Shown: positions 30,583 through 40,217 of the stretch, piece after piece
Layout: each line of letters starts with the position of its first letter
Position numbering within the stretch: the stretch's first letter is position 1
From: a bacterium
Lineage (GTDB): Bacteria; Patescibacteriota; Doudnabacteria; UBA920
Reading direction: 5' to 3'
Length of the DNA: 40,217 nucleotides
NCBI GenBank assembly: GCA_021847435.1
Contig: JAJZRC010000004.1
Location: forward strand, 1-40,217
Notes under the pieces: model-generated
The model's database searches: none
What the model was told of the DNA's origin: nothing
What the model saw: the letters and a program-made list of their open reading frames with translations, nothing else
Program-made: the position numbers and the translations under genes

Positions 30583-30611
30583 TTGACAAATACCCCCAGG
30601 GGGTATACAAT
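30583..30611 (+). promoter_or_regulatory. csoR promoter with embedded CsoR-type operator
   Basis: TTGACA - 17 bp - TACAAT; perfect palindrome ATACCCCCAGGGGGTAT at 30590-30606. Confidence 0.9.
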
Positions 30612-30635: not shown

Positions 30636-30902
30636 ATGCAAGAAAATTACAAAAAGAAGCTAATCCATCACCTTCACAGGATTAAAGGCCAAGTAGAGGG
30701 TATTGAAAGGATGGTGGAGGCCCGCAAATATTGCGTTGATATTATGACGCAAAGTTTGGCTGTGGAGAAATCCTTGGAGCGATTTAATGCCGACCTTTTA
30801 GAAAACCATTTAACCGAACACGTATTCCACCAGTTTATGCATGGCCAATCCGCCAAAGCGACAGACGAGATGCTGAAAATTTTTAAATTGAAAAATAAAT
30901 AG
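30636..30902 (+). CDS. csoR: CsoR/RcnR/FrmR family metal-sensing repressor
   Basis: LIHHLHRIKGQVEGIERMVEARKYCVDIMTQ...LLENHLTEHV. Confidence 0.9.
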   Translation: MQENYKKKLIHHLHRIKGQVEGIERMVEARKYCVDIMTQSLAVEKSLERFNADLLENHLTEHVFHQFMHGQSAKATDEMLKIFKLKNK

Positions 30903-30908
30903 CGTTTT

Positions 30909-31364
30909 ATGCAAGCGTCTTTCTCCAAAAAAATAATGTCTCAGGCTGGCCTGGTTATTTCCGCCGTTGTTTTGGCGATTGCTTTTTTTGGACCCGCCCA
31001 GGCGCACCATGGCGAGTTTATGGAAGCGCATAACCCAGCATCTTTTTGCCGCGCGCAAGGCTGCGGAGAGCCGATGGGAGACTTGTTTTGTTTCAGCCAG
31101 TGTTTGAGTGTTTTTGCAAGCAACCTGCAAACTTTGCCGGCGAAGACGCCAGTTTTTTTGCCGTATGTTTTGGTTTTTTGTTTGCTTATTTCCATCAATT
31201 ACCTCGCGGCCGGGGGCAGACCATTTTATTTCAAATCGTTTATTCGTAAAAAGCGAGAGGTGTTCGCTCGAAGTTTTTTTGTTCAAATCGGCAGATGGTT
31301 GATTTTGTTCGGCAAGCGGGATCCCGCCGAAGTTTTTGCGTTAATTCAGTTGCGCAACATTTAA
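30909..31364 (+). CDS. Cys/His-rich membrane protein of the metal operon (hypothetical)
   Basis: N-terminal TM/signal then HHGEFMEAHNPASFCRAQGCGEPMGDLFCFSQC, second TM; 7 bp after csoR. Confidence 0.65.
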   Translation: MQASFSKKIMSQAGLVISAVVLAIAFFGPAQAHHGEFMEAHNPASFCRAQGCGEPMGDLFCFSQCLSVFASNLQTLPAKTPVFLPYVLVFCLLISINYLAAGGRPFYFKSFIRKKREVFARSFFVQIGRWLILFGKRDPAEVFALIQLRNI

Positions 31365-31409: not shown

Positions 31410-32747
31410 ATGCATAAACTCATAATCCCTATAAAAGGGATGCATTGTAAATCTTGTGAACTTCTGATTGAAGACAACTTAAGAAAGCTCCCAGGCGTAA
31501 AAAGGGTCGAGGTGAGCCATATTTCCGGAAAAGCAAAAATATGGTGCGATGACGGCACCCCGCCTGCTAAAAGCATTGGCGCAGCGGTGGAAGACGCGGG
31601 TTATACTTTAGGACAGGAAGATAAAAAGCATTGGTTTTCCAGAAATTCCCAGGATTACCTGAATTTGGTGAATGCGGGTGGAATTTTGCTGGTCCTCTTT
31701 TTCCTAGCCCAAATTTTCGGTTTTTCCGACATGGCTGGAAATTTTCAGCAGAAAAGCATAGCCATGTCTTTGGTGGTGGGCTTGGTGGCAGGAGTTTCTT
31801 CCTGCATGGCTTTGATAGGCGGGTTGGTTCTGGCTTTGTCCGCCAGGCACTCGGAACTCCATCCGGAGGCCAGCCGAATGCAAAAATTTCGTCCCCATTT
31901 GTTTTTTAATCTAGGAAGGGTTCTGGGCTTCGCCGTACTGGGGGGGCTAATCGGCATGGCGGGAGGGGCGCTGCAGCCATCCGCAAAGTTTATGGGCCTG
32001 CTTACGTTGTTAGTCGGCGGCGCGATGCTTGTGATGGGATTGAAGCTTATTGAGATATTTCCCATTTTGCAGAAAGTAAATATAGCTTTGCCAAAATTTG
32101 TTTCCAAGCTTTTTGGGATAAAACGGGAGCAGAAAGAATACAGCCACAAAGGCGCGGTTTTGGGAGGGGCGCTGACTTTCTTTTTGCCTTGCGGTTTTAC
32201 GCAAGCCATGCAGCTTTACGCCGTAAGCACCGGCAGTTTTGTTTCCGGGGCTTTAATAATGTCTCTGTTTGCCTTAGGCACTTCCCCGGGGTTATTGGGC
32301 ATAGGCGGGCTTTCCAGTGCTTTTAAAGGTTCAAAGGCGAAAGTATTTTTTGCAGCGGCGGGATTGGCCGTGATAATTTTGGGGATATTTAATATCTTCA
32401 ACGCGAGCCAATTGGCGTTTTCTTCAGGGCCCGCCCGGAACCAAACAAATAAAACCATTTCTCCGAGCGCGCCTGCCGAAGGAGCGCAGGAAGTACGAAT
32501 GACGCAAGGGGCTTCGGGCTACTCGCCTAATAAGCTGACTGTTAAGAAAGGGATTCCGGTTAGGTGGATAATCAGCTCCACTAACCAGTATTCCTGCGCC
32601 GCCTTTCTCATAATGCCGAAATATGGCATCAACCAAGCGCTTAAAAGCGGAGAAAATATAATTGAATTTACGCCTGAAAAGTCAGGAGAGATTCCTTTTT
32701 CATGTTCAATGGGCATGTATAGAGGCAAGTTCATCGTAACCGATTAA
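31410..32747 (+). CDS. HMA - DsbD2/TauE-like membrane domain - cupredoxin fusion protein
   Basis: GMHCKSCE HMA motif; SSCMALIGGLVLALSAR and FFLPCGFTQAMQLYAVSTGS membrane motifs; SGYSPNKLTVKKGIPVRW...PFSCSMGMYRGKFIV cupredoxin. Confidence 0.88.
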   Translation: MHKLIIPIKGMHCKSCELLIEDNLRKLPGVKRVEVSHISGKAKIWCDDGTPPAKSIGAAVEDAGYTLGQEDKKHWFSRNSQDYLNLVNAGGILLVLFFLAQIFGFSDMAGNFQQKSIAMSLVVGLVAGVSSCMALIGGLVLALSARHSELHPEASRMQKFRPHLFFNLGRVLGFAVLGGLIGMAGGALQPSAKFMGLLTLLVGGAMLVMGLKLIEIFPILQKVNIALPKFVSKLFGIKREQKEYSHKGAVLGGALTFFLPCGFTQAMQLYAVSTGSFVSGALIMSLFALGTSPGLLGIGGLSSAFKGSKAKVFFAAAGLAVIILGIFNIFNASQLAFSSGPARNQTNKTISPSAPAEGAQEVRMTQGASGYSPNKLTVKKGIPVRWIISSTNQYSCAAFLIMPKYGINQALKSGENIIEFTPEKSGEIPFSCSMGMYRGKFIVTD

Positions 32748-32761
32748 TCAACTTCATATTT

Positions 32762-32977
32762 ATGGCTACAACAAAATTTCAACTCGCAAATTTGAACTGT
32801 TCCGCTTGCGGGAAAGTTTCGCAAATGAAAATTAGCAGAATAAAAGACGTAACCCAAGTCAGGATCGAGCAAAACGGCGGCTCCGCGCTGGGGGAATTGG
32901 AAGCCGGCCGGGAAATCCCGATTTTAGAGCTTGAGGAGGCTTTGGCAGGCACGGGCTATAAAGTGCGTTTAGTATAA
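32762..32977 (+). CDS. Small HMA-like metallochaperone
   Basis: ANLNCSACGKVSQMKISRIKDVTQVRIEQ...GYKVRLV. Confidence 0.7.
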   Translation: MATTKFQLANLNCSACGKVSQMKISRIKDVTQVRIEQNGGSALGELEAGREIPILELEEALAGTGYKVRLV

Positions 32978-33006: not shown

Positions 33007-36000
33007 ATGGAAAATATATTTAAACTAAATGTCCAAGGCATGCATTGTGAATCTTGCGAAATCTTGATCAAAAGCGAGCTGAAGGAAATGCCCGGAATTA
33101 CAGAGGTTCGGATTTCCGCAAAAAACGGGCAAGGTTCGGTAAAAACAAATTTAAATTCAGTTACCGCATCTGATATACAGCAGGCTATCAAACGGGCTGG
33201 GTACGAAAGCGTCGTAACAGAAGATCATTCAATGCACGCGGGGAATAAGCAAATGGCAGAAGTGATGGACGGCGGGCAAAAAGCCGGGGTGCCTTTTTCA
33301 ATGAAACTGGAAAATAGAATTGAGGCCCAAGGCCGGGTATTGGAAAACTCGGAAAACGAGCCTTATTTTGAAGGCAAGCTCTCCAATTACAAGAATGCCG
33401 AAATTAATGTGCCGCCCGGTCAAGAGGCAACAAAAAATTATCTGGAACAATTGGTTAAAAGCGCCAACCTTTTTAGGGTTTTTGATCGTTTTGGCGGGGC
33501 GCAGGAAGAAGCTGTTTTGGCTAATTCCGGTTTGAACCGGCATCCGGCTAAAACCGCGGTTATGCCGGGAACCGGCAGCGGCGAGAACCGCAAAATAAAT
33601 TTGTCGCTTTCCGGCATGCATTGCGCCTCCTGCGCCGGGATTATTGAAAGATCTTTGCGGAAAGTGCCTGGCGTCATTCAGGCCAATGTAAATTTTGCCG
33701 CGGAAAAAGCCCAAGTTACTTTTGGCTCCGCGGCAAAAACCGGAGATTTAATTGATGCTGTAAAAAAAGCCGGATACGAAGCCGTTGAAATCGATGTCAA
33801 AGACACCGGGTTTGATGCCAGAAAAAGGCAGGCAGAGATTAGTTCGTATTCCAAAAAGCTTGTATTTAGCGTCATTTTAAGCCTGCCGATGCTATACTTC
33901 ATGTTTTTTGATTTTTTTGCCAGGGTTCCTGGCAAGGCATGGCTTTTGCCTTACGTCGGGATAGCGTCTTTAGTACTCGCTACTCCCGTTCAATTTATTA
34001 TCGGCAAGGGTTTCTATAAGGGCATGTGGTCATCGCTGCGCATGAAGACTTTTAACATGGATAGCCTTATTGCCATTGGCACTTCCACGGCTTATTTTTA
34101 CAGCCTCATAACTTTAATGCTCTATGCGATTGCCAATAAAAGCATCATCGGGTTAAATGGCGGAAAAATTCAAAACCTGTATTTTGAAACCGCCGCTTTT
34201 CTGATTACCTTTGTAATTTTAGGCAAATGGCTTGAAGTAAGGACAAAGGGAAAAACTTCGGACTCAATTAAAAAATTAATGGGGTTGCAGGCCAAAACAG
34301 CCCGAGTTATCCGCAACAGTGCCACTCAGGATATCCCAGTTGACCAAGTTGCGCTAAAAGATATTGTTATTGTGCGCCCGGGTGAAAAAATTCCGATTGA
34401 CGGCCGGATAACAAAAGGATCTTCCGCGGTGGATGAATCAATGCTGACCGGAGAAAGTCTGCCAGTTGAAAAGAAGGCCGGGGACAGCGTCGCCGGCGGG
34501 ACAATCAATAAAACCGGCAGCTTCGAATTTGAAGTAACCAAAATCGGGAATGATACCGTACTCTCCCAAATTATCAGGTTGGTTGAAGAAGCCCAGGGAT
34601 CCAAAGCGCCCATTCAAGATTTTGCGGACAAAGTCTCTTCCTGGTTTGTGCCGGCTGTTATTGGCATTGCGGTTGCCACGTTTCTGATTTGGTATTTTCT
34701 CCTGGGGGCAACCCTGGCTTTTGCCTTAATGGCCTTTACTTCCGTAATTGTAATTGCCTGCCCGTGCGCGCTGGGTCTTGCTACGCCGACTGCCATTATG
34801 GTCGGGACCGGCAAAGGCGCGGAAAACGGGATTTTAGTCAAAGGTGGGGAGCCTTTGGAGGCTGCTTGCAAGCTTGATGCTATCGTGTTTGATAAAACCG
34901 GGACTTTGACATACGGCAAGCCGGAAGTAACGGATGTGCTTGCTTTAACAGGCAAAGACGAAGAGGAAGTCCTGCAGATTGCCGCCAGTCTGGAAAAACT
35001 TTCAGAACACCCCCTTGCCGAGGCCATTTACAGCCATGCCCAGGATGAAGGCGTGAGTTTGTTGGAAGCTTCAAACTTTAAGGCAATCCCGGGGCACGGA
35101 GTGCAAGGCGAGATAGCCGGAACAACCTATTATTTCGGCAACCGAAAAATGATTTCAGATGTTGCGGGGGCGGCGGTGGAGAAGATTGGCAGAAAACAAG
35201 CTAAATTGGAAGAAGCTGGCAAGACAACAATGCTCTTGGCTACCAAAGAGGGCCTGGCCGGGTTGGTTGCGGTGGCGGATACGGTAAAATCGACCACGAA
35301 AACCGCAATCGAAAAACTTCAAAAAATGAAAATAGAAGTTTATATGATTACCGGTGACAATGAGCGTACCGCCCGGGCGATTGCTTCCCAGGTGGGGATC
35401 ACAAACGTGCTGGCGGAAGTGTTGCCGGAAGACAAGGCTAATGAAGTCAAAAAGCTCCAGGCGGAAAACAAGAAAGTGGCCATGGTCGGGGACGGGATTA
35501 ATGACGCTCCTGCTTTGGCCCAGGCGGATTTAGGCATTGCAATGGGCAGCGGAACAGACGTGGCCATGGAAACCGGCGGGGTAATAATTATGAAAAATGA
35601 TTTAAATGACGTGGCAAATGCCATTCAGCTCTCCAGGGAAACCATGGCTAAAATTAAACAGAATATGTTTTTTGCTTTGTTTTATAATGTAATTGGCATT
35701 CCTATTGCTGCCCGCGTTTTCGCGTCTTTCGGTCTTGTGTTGAAACCGGAACTGGCCGGTTTGGCTATGGCTTTAAGCTCCGTGTCAGTAGTTACCAATT
35801 CTTTAACCTTAAGATTCTTTAAGCCCGGTAAAAGAAATTGGGTTTCTTTATTGGCCCCCGCGCTGATGGTTTTGGTGTTTGGGTTTGCTTTCTTTGAATT
35901 CGCCAAATTCAGCAGCCGCATGGCCGAACCGGCGTCCGCGATGGCCGTTCAAGCCGCAAGTCCGGAAATTGCCGGCAAAGCGCGGCGGTTAGTTTCCGCT

Positions 36001-36369
36001 TCGCCGATAATAATCAACTTCGCGGCAGCCGGCCCGAAATTTTTTGTAATCAGCCCAGGCGATTTTATAGATCTGCCCATTCAGGCCGGGCAAAATCGCT
36101 TGGGGAAGGACGGGATGATTATTGGCGCGAGCGAGGCTGAAATGATGATCCGGGAAAAACTGTTTGAAAAACCGGGCGACAGTTTGTCTGATTTTTTCGG
36201 CGTCCCCAATATGAAAATAGTCGGCATATTAAAATCTACGGGAACCTTCCTGGACAATACCCATATTATTAAAGGCGAAACTCAAGTCGCGTCTGCGGCG
36301 GAAGGTTTCGCCAAAATGAACGGCGCAGAATTGAAATTATTAGGACTTACGCTTTTGAGCCAAGTTTGA
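33007..36369 (+). CDS. copA: Copper-type P1B ATPase with two HMA domains and an atypical C-terminal extension; current stop lies inside a family A element
   Basis: GMHCESCE and [11 protein letters not shown] motifs, [71 protein letters not shown]; last residues (GLTLLSQV) encoded by the repeat. Confidence 0.93.
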
Positions 36370-36504
36370 GGCATTTTCCGAGGATTTTTGGAGGCGTAGC
36401 CAGGCTACGCCAATAAAAACCGCAGGAAAATAACGAAAAAATTGGCCAAAGCCGCTTGCTGACCCGGCTTTGCCGGGTCTAAAGCGGCAAGAGCGTAAGT
36501 CCTA
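36341..36504. mobile_element. Family A MITE-like repeat, copy 5 (164 bp), TSD ATTAT, inserted in the copA ORF
   Basis: TAGGACTTACGCTTTTG...GCAAGAGCGTAAGTCCTA; attat on both sides. Confidence 0.93.
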
Positions 36505-36829
36505 ATTATTCTATGTTATTTCTGCAAACAATATTCCCCAGGTGTTTGCTGGCAATGTCGGGAAAGACAGCTTGTTGCCGGTTGTGCTGGGTTCCAAGAA
36601 GCTTTCTCCTGTATTTGTCGGGGAAAGCGAGGCCGAGGCGATGCGGAAGGAAAAACTGTTCGTAAAAGAAGGAGATACGCTGTCCGGATTCTTTGGCAAT
36701 GATGCGATTATTTCTTCTATTTTGCCGAAAACCAAAACCGAGTTGGACAATTTTCATTTTGTAACGCAGGATTTTATTAGCGGCGTAGAGCGAGTAAAAG
36801 AGTCCTTAAGGACTCTTTTACGAGCCTGA
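36505..36829 (+). pseudogene. Detached 3' part of the copA ORF (second copy of the C-terminal domain), ending in family B copy 4
   Basis: FYVISANNIPQVFAGNVGKDSLLP...ESEAEAMRKEKLFVKEGDTLSGFFG is homologous to FFVISPGDF...[25 protein letters not shown] in the copA tail. Confidence 0.82.
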
Positions 36830-36939: not shown

Positions 36940-37079
36940 TTTATTCGGGAAAATTATGGAAATTAAAAAAACTTTGATATAATAAATATCCAAGAACATA
37001 AGAAATTAAAAATGGAAATGCCTCGCTCATTGCCGTTTAACAAGCCCGACCAATGGAAGAGCCTGAGAATGGATAATTA

Positions 37080-37273
37080 TAGGACTTACGCATTTGGCCA
37101 AGTTCGAGGCATTCTGCGAGCCTGCCTGCCGGCAGGCAGGGATGTTTCGAGCCGTGGTGAAACTACGGCGAGAAAGACCGCAGTAAAATAACGAAGAAAT
37201 AGGCCAAACTTAAGCGCAGCTGCCCTAAAATTCGGGCTTTGCCCGATTTTGGACAGCAAGTGCGTAAGTCCTA
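37080..37273. repeat. Family A MITE-like repeat, copy 6 (194 bp), TSD AATTA
   Basis: TAGGACTTACGC...GCGTAAGTCCTA; aatta on both sides. Confidence 0.92.
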
Positions 37274-37289
37274 AATTAATCAGAAAAAT

Positions 37290-37772
37290 ATGAAAATAAC
37301 AAACAAAGGTTTAGGGAGCGTGCTTTTGTCGGCATTGTTTTTTCTGTCGGCTGGCAGTGCGTTAGCCGCGACCCTCCAGCCAGGTTATGGCATGATGGGT
37401 ACGGCCACAATTTCAAATGGTAATGCGGTATACCAAACCCAGTCCGCCAGCGGACAAAAAATTCAGGGTTACATGTACAAATTGCAGCAGGGGCAGTTAA
37501 CGGCTGAAGAGCAAAAGGATATGTATGGCTTTATGGCTGCGCCCGCCGGCGTTTCCGGTTCGTTTGCGTTCCCTCCCATGATGGGTTATGCGGCAGCATC
37601 TTCAGCGGGCCAAGGCCAATTTTTTTACCGCTCCGGCTCTATGATGTCCGGCTGGGGAAATAAGGGCGCCTGGTATGCGCTGATGCATATTTTAACCGTA
37701 GTTTTAGTTTGGACAGCGCTGCTGTTGTGCATTGCAGCGCTGTTTAAATACATAAAACACAAACAACATTAA
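37290..37772 (+). CDS. Exported Met-rich protein with C-terminal TM; putative copper-related
   Basis: Signal peptide ending ALAAT; GYGMMG, FPPMMGYA, SGSMMSGWG motifs; adjacent to cupredoxin fusion gene. Confidence 0.65.
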   Translation: MKITNKGLGSVLLSALFFLSAGSALAATLQPGYGMMGTATISNGNAVYQTQSASGQKIQGYMYKLQQGQLTAEEQKDMYGFMAAPAGVSGSFAFPPMMGYAAASSAGQGQFFYRSGSMMSGWGNKGAWYALMHILTVVLVWTALLLCIAALFKYIKHKQH

Positions 37773-37783
37773 AACCAGTTTGC

Positions 37784-38818
37784 ATGCAAAATGCTTCGTT
37801 TGTCGCCATATTTTTAACCGGATTATTGACCGGCGGACTGACTTGCCTGGCCGTTCAGGGAGGGCTGCTTGCCGCCACCATTGCCCAGCGCGAGGAAGAG
37901 CGTTTAAAGCAGCAGGCCGGCCGCAGCGGGGCGGCTTTGCCGATTGTATGGTTTTTGGCGGCGAAGCTTGCGGCATATATTTTGTTGGGCGTGCTGTTGG
38001 GATGGTTTGGGTCCCTGTTTGATTTGTCCTTGGGCGTGAAATTGGCCATGCAGTTTGCGGTCGTGATTTTTATGATTGGCACAGCCGGCGCGCTTTTGGA
38101 CTTGCATCCTTTTTTCCGCTATTTTGTCATCCAACCCCCAAAGTTTTTAATGCGCATGGTCCGGAATAAGTCCAAGAGCCGGGATGCGTTTGCGCCGGCC
38201 ATTTTGGGCGCGTTTACCGTTTTTATTCCTTGCGGTACCACCCAGGCCATGATGGCTCTGGCCATTGCCAGCGGCAGCCCTTTTCGGGGAGCTGGAATAA
38301 TGTTCTCTTTTGTGCTAGGCACCACCCCGCTGTTTTTCCTGTTAGGCTATTTTGCCGCGCGCCTGGGAGATGCCCGGAGCAGGAAATTTCTTCGCGTTGC
38401 AGCCCTGGCTGTGGCAGTGCTGGCTTTGTTCAACCTTAACAATGCTTTGGCTTTAACGGGCAAGCCTATAACTTTCGGCCAGCTGGCCAAGTCCGCTGCG
38501 TGCATGGTGGCGTACTGCGGTCCTGATGAAGGAACCGCGGCACCGGCCGCAGGTGTTCGGGCCGAAATCACAATCGGGACATACGGTTACTCGCCTAACA
38601 GCATCAGTCTAAAAAAAGACAGCGACGTGACAATAAAATTGTTTAATAAAGACGGCACAAGCTGCGCCCAGGCTTTTACTATCCCGTCCTTGCGGATACA
38701 GAAGCTGGTACCCGTAGGGCAAACCGAGGAAATAACTTTCCATACCCCCTCCGAACCGACCCGGATTGCATTCATGTGCAGCATGGGCATGTATAGGGGA
38801 ATAATTAACGTAAATTAA
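37784..38818 (+). CDS. DsbD2/TauE-like membrane domain - cupredoxin fusion (paralog of 31410-32747 without HMA)
   Basis: GGLTCLAVQGGLLAATIAQR, FIPCGTTQAMMALAIASGSPF, YGYSPNSISLKKDSDVTIKL...FMCSMGMYRGIINV. Confidence 0.87.
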   Translation: MQNASFVAIFLTGLLTGGLTCLAVQGGLLAATIAQREEERLKQQAGRSGAALPIVWFLAAKLAAYILLGVLLGWFGSLFDLSLGVKLAMQFAVVIFMIGTAGALLDLHPFFRYFVIQPPKFLMRMVRNKSKSRDAFAPAILGAFTVFIPCGTTQAMMALAIASGSPFRGAGIMFSFVLGTTPLFFLLGYFAARLGDARSRKFLRVAALAVAVLALFNLNNALALTGKPITFGQLAKSAACMVAYCGPDEGTAAPAAGVRAEITIGTYGYSPNSISLKKDSDVTIKLFNKDGTSCAQAFTIPSLRIQKLVPVGQTEEITFHTPSEPTRIAFMCSMGMYRGIINVN

Positions 38819-38830
38819 TTTTTTAACCGC

Positions 38831-39043
38831 ATGTCGGAAACCATTCAGTTAAAAATTTCGGGTTTGCACTGCACTTCCTGCGCCATGAACATTGACGGTG
38901 ATTTGGAAGACGCCGAAGGCGTGTTTTCGGCGCAAACCAGCTACGCCAAGTCCCAAACTTTGGTGGAGTACGATCCGCAAAAAATTTCGCAGGAAAAAAT
39001 ACGGGAAATAATCAAGAAAGCGGGTTACGAAGCCGAAAATTAA
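38831..39043 (+). CDS. copZ: Copper chaperone CopZ-like HMA protein
   Basis: LKISGLHCTSCAMNIDGDLEDAEGVFSAQTSYAKSQTLVEYDP...KKAGYEAE. Confidence 0.87.
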   Translation: MSETIQLKISGLHCTSCAMNIDGDLEDAEGVFSAQTSYAKSQTLVEYDPQKISQEKIREIIKKAGYEAEN

Positions 39044-40090: not shown

Positions 40091-40217
40091 TAGGACTTAC
40101 GCTCTTGCCGCTTTAGACCCGGCAAAGCCGGGTCAGCAAGCGGCTTTGGCCAATTTTTTCGTTATTTTCCTGCGGTTTTTATCGGCGTAGCCTGGCTACG
40201 CCTCCAAAAATCCTCGG
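40091..40217. repeat. Family A MITE-like repeat, copy 7 (runs off the window)
   Basis: TAGGACTTACGCTCTTGCCGC... same body as copy 3. Confidence 0.9.

Follow-up and report, generated by a model that had tools for sequence, protein, structure and literature searches.

The window analysed here, a stretch of 40,217 nucleotides from a 1.0 Mb, 97% complete genome of Candidatus Doudnabacteria (Patescibacteria, CPR), carries a copper operon in the gene order csoR, small membrane protein, fusion, copZ-like gene and copA, all on the + strand. The operon is preceded by a promoter at 30583..30611 (TTGACA-17 bp-TACAAT), the spacer of which is filled by a CsoR-type operator, AATACCCCCAGGGGGTA, with an exact match of the palindrome at 30591-30605. 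Across 132 related loci, this GC-rich palindrome was always located ahead of csoR and was ~139-fold denser upstream of operon genes than elsewhere (0.47 vs 0.0034 per kb). The csoR gene (30636..30902; PF02583, E 6.5e-24) encodes a putative copper-sensing repressor, for which the best NCBIfam model was RicR, at a score under that model's cut-off. Instead of the C-H-C Cu(I) ligand set of CsoR, its sequence gives C-H-H (C33-H58-H62), a set known from Thermus CsoR, so that the case for copper sensing rests on the gene context and the operator. The next gene (30909..31364) encodes a small two-TM protein with a Cys/His/Met segment that belongs to no Pfam family; 20 homologues were found in related loci, mostly directly upstream of the fusion gene, i.e. 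between csoR and the fusion.

Downstream of the fusion gene (31410..32747), a diverged copZ-like HMA gene (NCSAC; 32762..32977) was missed by Pfam but found with an HMM built from the family; its place is conserved in relatives, and the fusion gene thus also has a free HMA-like gene of its own. It is followed by copA (33007..36369), which encodes a P1B Cu-ATPase with two HMA domains (TIGR01511, 638 bits against a cut-off of 397). The C-terminal tandem domain of this CopA is truncated by a MITE-like insertion (36340-36510): the open reading frame ends within the element, and what remains of the last domain lies at 36511-36829, whereas relatives reach 1201-1208 aa. The element (165 bp, ends TTAGGACTTACGC) has ~40 matches in the genome and is also present at 37072-37281 and 40091-40217. 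Long CopA proteins of this type show an apparent ninth TM helix and a domain present twice (~residues 985-1120, and the remnant at 36511-36829), which has no Pfam match, is common to about a dozen CPR CopAs and, judged by topology, should lie outside the cell.

A second set of genes starts with a Met-rich small membrane protein (37290..37772), which gave no Pfam or NCBIfam match but nine matches (itself included) in copper loci; its relatives include mini-proteins of 48-53 aa, e.g. MMYYYNYMMGGYGGGMM, in CPR copper loci. It is followed by a DsbD_2-cupredoxin protein of 344 aa that lacks an HMA domain (37784..38818) and by a copZ-like HMA gene (LHCTSC; 38831..39043; PF00403, E 1.2e-12). In close relatives, one module (A) reads csoR-orf-fusion-copZ1-long copA and another (B) csoR-short copA-(Met-rich protein)-split-copZ2; in the window, module A precedes a module B that lacks a csoR and a copA of its own. 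The genome has module A once more on another, short contig (C22), where copA is uninterrupted and encodes 1201 aa.

The sequence-only reading had described 31410-32747 as a fusion of HMA, DsbD2 and cupredoxin domains, and Pfam bore this out, with coordinates and motifs correct. The open reading frame is exact and encodes 445 aa, and all three domains scored above their Pfam cut-offs. Specifically, the HMA domain (31425..31607; residues 6-66; PF00403, E 1.4e-8) carries MHCKSC with C13 and C16, and GMHCKSC fits the GMxCxxC motif of CopZ and HMA domains with their ferredoxin-like fold. The DsbD_2 membrane domain (31770..32387; residues 121-326; PF13386, E 2.8e-33, 115.9 bits vs a cut-off of 24.9) contains C132, M206, C261, Q265 and M267, with PCGFTQAMQLYA at residues 260-271. 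The cupredoxin (32457..32738; Cupredoxin_1, residues 350-443, E 7.2e-11) includes FSCSMGMYRGKFIV at residues 430-443. The same fusion was seen in 79 aligned homologues across many CPR phyla, and because of this recurrence the architecture is not due to chance. Both HMA cysteines were present in 78/78 aligned homologues, C132, C261 and M206 in 79/79, and M267 in 78/79.

The cupredoxin proved to resemble CupA of Streptococcus pneumoniae (PDB 4f2e, 2mry). PDB CupA matched the domain with a phmmer E of 4e-15, and the modelled domain aligned with the solved structures 4f2e (TMt 0.88) and 4f2f (TMt 0.90) in Foldseek. The Cu(I) ligands of pneumococcal CupA, C74, C111, M113 and M115 (PMC5646241), align with C396, C432, M434 and M436 of the fusion, which are kept in 79, 79, 79 and 78 of the 79 aligned sequences; CupA-type ligands were likewise present in all 20 DsbD_2-cupredoxin (D-CUP) proteins examined. 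A cupredoxin devoid of copper ligands, which would have spoken against the copper relay proposed by the sequence-only reading, is thus not what we found: the full set of two Cys and two Met is in CupA register and, on their sequence, the cupredoxins of the window are CupA-type Cu(I) domains. We also considered a blue-copper electron carrier and rejected it, as the best solved structures are the Cu(I)-binding CupA and a pneumococcal CopA domain, and the ligands are two Cys and two Met. The fold, the four ligands and the CopA export operon are shared with CupA. However, CupA is held in the membrane by one N-terminal anchor and was modelled as facing the cytosol (PMC5646241), whereas the domain described here ends a polytopic protein fused to HMA and DsbD_2 and is predicted to lie outside. 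For this reason we call the domain CupA-type and do not regard the protein as an orthologue of CupA.

To place the domains relative to the membrane, a topology prediction, proposed with the sequence-only reading, was carried out. An AlphaFold2 model from 79 sequences (pLDDT 84.4, pTM 0.77) showed, in this order, a ferredoxin-like HMA, one TM helix (residues 80-103, between HMA and DsbD_2), six further membrane helices and a beta-barrel. The best PDB fold matches were CopZ for the HMA (6ff2, TMt 0.90), and pneumococcal CupA and the CopA metal-binding domain for the cupredoxin. In both lineages, Lys/Arg counts assigned the HMA and loops 1-2, 3-4 and 5-6 to the inner side of the membrane and the cupredoxin to the outer side; on this positive-inside bias and the helix count of the model, the HMA is predicted to be cytosolic and the cupredoxin extracytoplasmic. 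In the model, TM1 is broken at C132 (helices 117-130/132-149) and TM4 at P260-C261 (helices 246-258/262-274), so that the Cys132/Cys261 pair is predicted to sit at helix breaks within the membrane. The membrane domain alone, for which the model is weak (pLDDT 73.4), matched no PDB fold in Foldseek at E 0.001, CcdA and DsbD included.

The protein encoded at 37784-38818 had been described as repeating the last two domains of the fusion, with an independent copZ-like gene downstream, and both statements hold. Pfam placed DsbD_2 at residues 8-215 (E 6.4e-30) and Cupredoxin_1 at residues 254-341 (E 3.7e-11), and the two proteins are clearly related (31% identity over 322 alignment columns, E 2e-33). 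The term HMA-less paralog, in contrast, was right as to kinship but not as to origin. In a tree of the DsbD_2 domains of 134 proteins, a split with 100/100 support separated two groups: the first comprises 14 split CPR proteins, that of the window included, together with Deinococcus, Chloroflexi and actinobacterial proteins; the other comprises all HMA-fused proteins, the one of Acetoanaerobium and six HMA-less D-CUP members. A recent duplication of the fusion followed by HMA loss is rejected by this split, and by their sequences the two proteins of the window are members of two deep, long-separated lineages, neither of them a recent HMA loss. Being unrooted, the tree leaves gain and loss of the HMA at its base unordered, and the long branches (Acetoanaerobium and two HMA-less rows) are placed with less certainty. 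In five of the six HMA-less members of the fused lineage, the extra TM helix is preceded by a short N-terminal tail that has 2-4 Cys (SCGSCECG, CECAAGTC, PSCC, CENC); in the loci concerned (L135, L138, L139, L140 and L141), these cytosolic tails take the place of the HMA.

A genome-collection scan returned 525 relatives, and the best 80 loci were from CPR of many phyla, some in records titled only 'bacterium'. In an even sample of the phylum Patescibacteria, 161/380 genomes carried a relative at E 1e-20; by hand count among the matches listed, ~100 span all three domains, 35 end after or near the end of DsbD_2 and 17 begin after the HMA. The fused and split forms noted in the window are indeed interchangeable, but two architectures are too few: Patescibacteria have HMA-D-CUP, D-CUP plus an HMA gene, and HMA-D plus a CUP gene, the cupredoxin of this third layout being a separate single-TM protein, as well as forms with a second cupredoxin. 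A separate CUP gene was found near 21/22 HMA-D genes and a separate HMA gene near 13/20 D-CUP genes, and copA was ≤ 1.5 kb from 118/134 loci; as some loci were chosen manually and others for their similarity to the fusion, the ratios hold for this set, not for the phylum. Outside CPR, the fused form adjoins CopA in Acetoanaerobium noterae (Clostridia), while the split form occurs in Deinococcus, Chloroflexi and Mycolicibacterium, where it is annotated as 'sulfite exporter TauE/SafE'. Viral contigs yielded no relative.

What does the fusion do? With about equal weight for and against, we propose that it is a detoxification component of a CsoR-controlled operon that relays Cu(I) from the inside to the outside. 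Excess cytosolic Cu(I) would release CsoR, and free CopZ-like proteins would bring Cu(I) both to CopA and to the fusion HMA. The DsbD_2 domain would then pass Cu(I) on via Cys132/Cys261, with Met206 and Met267 as further ligands within the membrane, and the two-site CupA-type cupredoxin outside would receive and hold it until it is released or sequestered. A separate CopZ would take the place of the fused HMA in the split lineage. The sequence-only reading had likewise claimed a membrane copper relay, and its copper context, topology and ligands stand. That copper rather than electrons crosses DsbD_2, and does so outward, we infer; most of these data would also suit an electron (thiol) relay. 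An outward Cu(I) relay is favoured by the ordered series of cytosolic site, Cys pair and external site, and by the cytosolic cysteines kept upon HMA loss, which are explained by a metal entry site but not needed by a pure electron relay. The conserved CupA-type ligands, the recurrence of the three domains in fused and split layouts and the CsoR operator also speak for this reading. The more specific proposal, that DsbD_2 serves in these proteins as a Cu(I) conduit independent of ATP, leading from cytosolic HMA, Cys tail or CopZ through the Cys-Cys/Met site to the external CupA-type domain, is tentative and falls short of an even chance. A passive Cu(I) path, if ungated, could leak copper inward against CopA, and the cupredoxin could instead be loaded by CopA.

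A further argument against the Cu(I) relay is also an argument for its strongest rival. A Cys pair within the membrane at broken TM1/TM4 helices is a trait of the redox proteins DsbD and CcdA, and by this analogy DsbD_2 would move reducing equivalents via Cys132-Cys261 to the external Cys396/Cys432; the cupredoxin would reduce Cu(II) or await Cu(I) from CopA, and the HMA would be regulatory or serve in docking. Besides the invariant Cys pair, it is consistent with this that thiols would be oxidized outside, where the cupredoxin is predicted, and that the DsbD_TM profile also matches 4/79 members. Moreover, the Cys pair of CupA serves to reduce Cu(II), and an unknown reductant must then reset it (PMC5646241). 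Like DsbD/CcdA thiol-disulfide electron transporters, the window proteins match the DsbD_2 profile; in contrast to them, neither has a fused thioredoxin-like domain in Pfam, and copper-binding domains are predicted on both sides. The weak model gave no structural match to CcdA or DsbD. The constant cytosolic partner, an HMA or a Cys tail, would not be needed by a relay fed by thioredoxin (the search for a thioredoxin-like domain covered the two proteins themselves, and that of neighbouring genes in the relatives covered copper-related domains). We consider the electron relay rather unlikely on this evidence.

Alternatively, CopA might pump all the copper, the cupredoxin accepting Cu(I), the HMA feeding CopA and the membrane domain acting as a scaffold. 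The proximity of CopA in the 118 loci would agree with this, as would the cupredoxin that occurs as a separate anchored protein and the transfer of Cu(I) from pneumococcal CupA to CopA (PMC5646241, PMC7558416). However, invariant C132, C261 and M206 in 79 sequences are unexpected for a mere scaffold, and no CopA is near 16/134 loci, some of them at contig ends, which makes this reading clearly improbable.

Membrane copper relays are used in proteobacterial oxidase assembly, and the system could thus supply copper to extracytoplasmic cuproenzymes, in the maturation of oxidase, NirK or multicopper oxidase. Some CPR do have nirK (PMC5581439), and five genomes (G208, G232, G265, G324 and G351) encode a multicopper oxidase no more than ~6 kb from the fusion gene. 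In the source genome, no COX1 and no Cu-oxidase domains (multicopper oxidase) were detected at the Pfam thresholds used. Among the 380 CPR genomes, the system was depleted in those with COX1 (3/29 vs 158/351 others, p 1.5e-4) and independent of multicopper oxidase/NirK (12/25 vs 149/355, p 0.68), p-values that are inflated by shared ancestry, with COX1 genomes clustering in few families. Given in addition that genes under CsoR control are induced when copper is in excess, supply of cuproenzymes is highly improbable. Instead, CsoR control, the adjoining CopA and the absence of heme-copper and multicopper oxidases make copper detoxification the likely role of the system, as far as gene content can tell. 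Uptake, with the external cupredoxin capturing copper and the membrane domain importing it to HMA/CopZ, could use the same ligand chain inward, and DsbD_2 relatives are counted among metal-uptake proteins, but this is equally remote given a copper-derepressed operon shared with an export ATPase and a genome with no main cuproenzyme to feed.

None of the individual parts of this system is new, and gut Firmicutes were previously reported to have HMA-DsbD_2 fusions under CsoR. There, proteins with HMA, DsbD_2 and DUF2318 (COG2836) were inferred as CsoR-regulon members (PMC4938975); they share with the window protein the HMA-DsbD_2 fusion, inferred CsoR control and, in some operons, linkage to CopA, but they have DUF2318 where the window protein has a CupA-type cupredoxin, and they are known from regulon inference only. 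The layout of the split protein of the window is found in a cluster of the Chloroflexi SURF MAG 71 (CopZ, DsbD_2-cupredoxin, CopA and CsoR), listed in an appendix table (PMC8756737), and in Deinococcus, Chlorohelix and Mycolicibacterium plasmid loci, which belong to the same tree lineage. The SURF MAG 71 and plasmid loci differ in that they are known from a table or automatic annotation only, come from other hosts and in some cases have no CopA nearby. Our literature search on DsbD_2 function in copper handling returned this annotation table and the regulon inference but no experiment on such a protein, and a search on copper handling in Patescibacteria returned no functional work. With 161/380 sampled genomes positive, the fusion family is apparently one of the main components of copper handling in Patescibacteria.

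The fusion places a copper carrier in the cytosol, a Cys pair in the membrane and a CupA-type site outside in a single chain, so that one purified protein could show which of the two, copper or electrons, is moved by DsbD_2 domains. The answer would bear on the 'sulfite exporter TauE/SafE' genes in copper loci and on the source of reductant for CupA. If the Cu(I) conduit is real, it would define a class of bacterial Cu(I) transporters that has so far gone uncharacterized; ~40% of Patescibacteria genomes would encode one, and its range would include Clostridia, Chloroflexi, Deinococcus and Actinobacteria.

Finally, in forty members of the family that have the HMA, a further cupredoxin is attached through a linker, which mostly has 2-4 Cys in a Gly-rich context; in this second cupredoxin, the last Met is mostly missing (CAMGV). 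In L048, L071, L108 and other long members, the second cupredoxin is accompanied by a Cys/Gly-rich linker of the GGGCGCGGG type, and one genome (G036, locus L038) has a single cupredoxin that resembles the second type.
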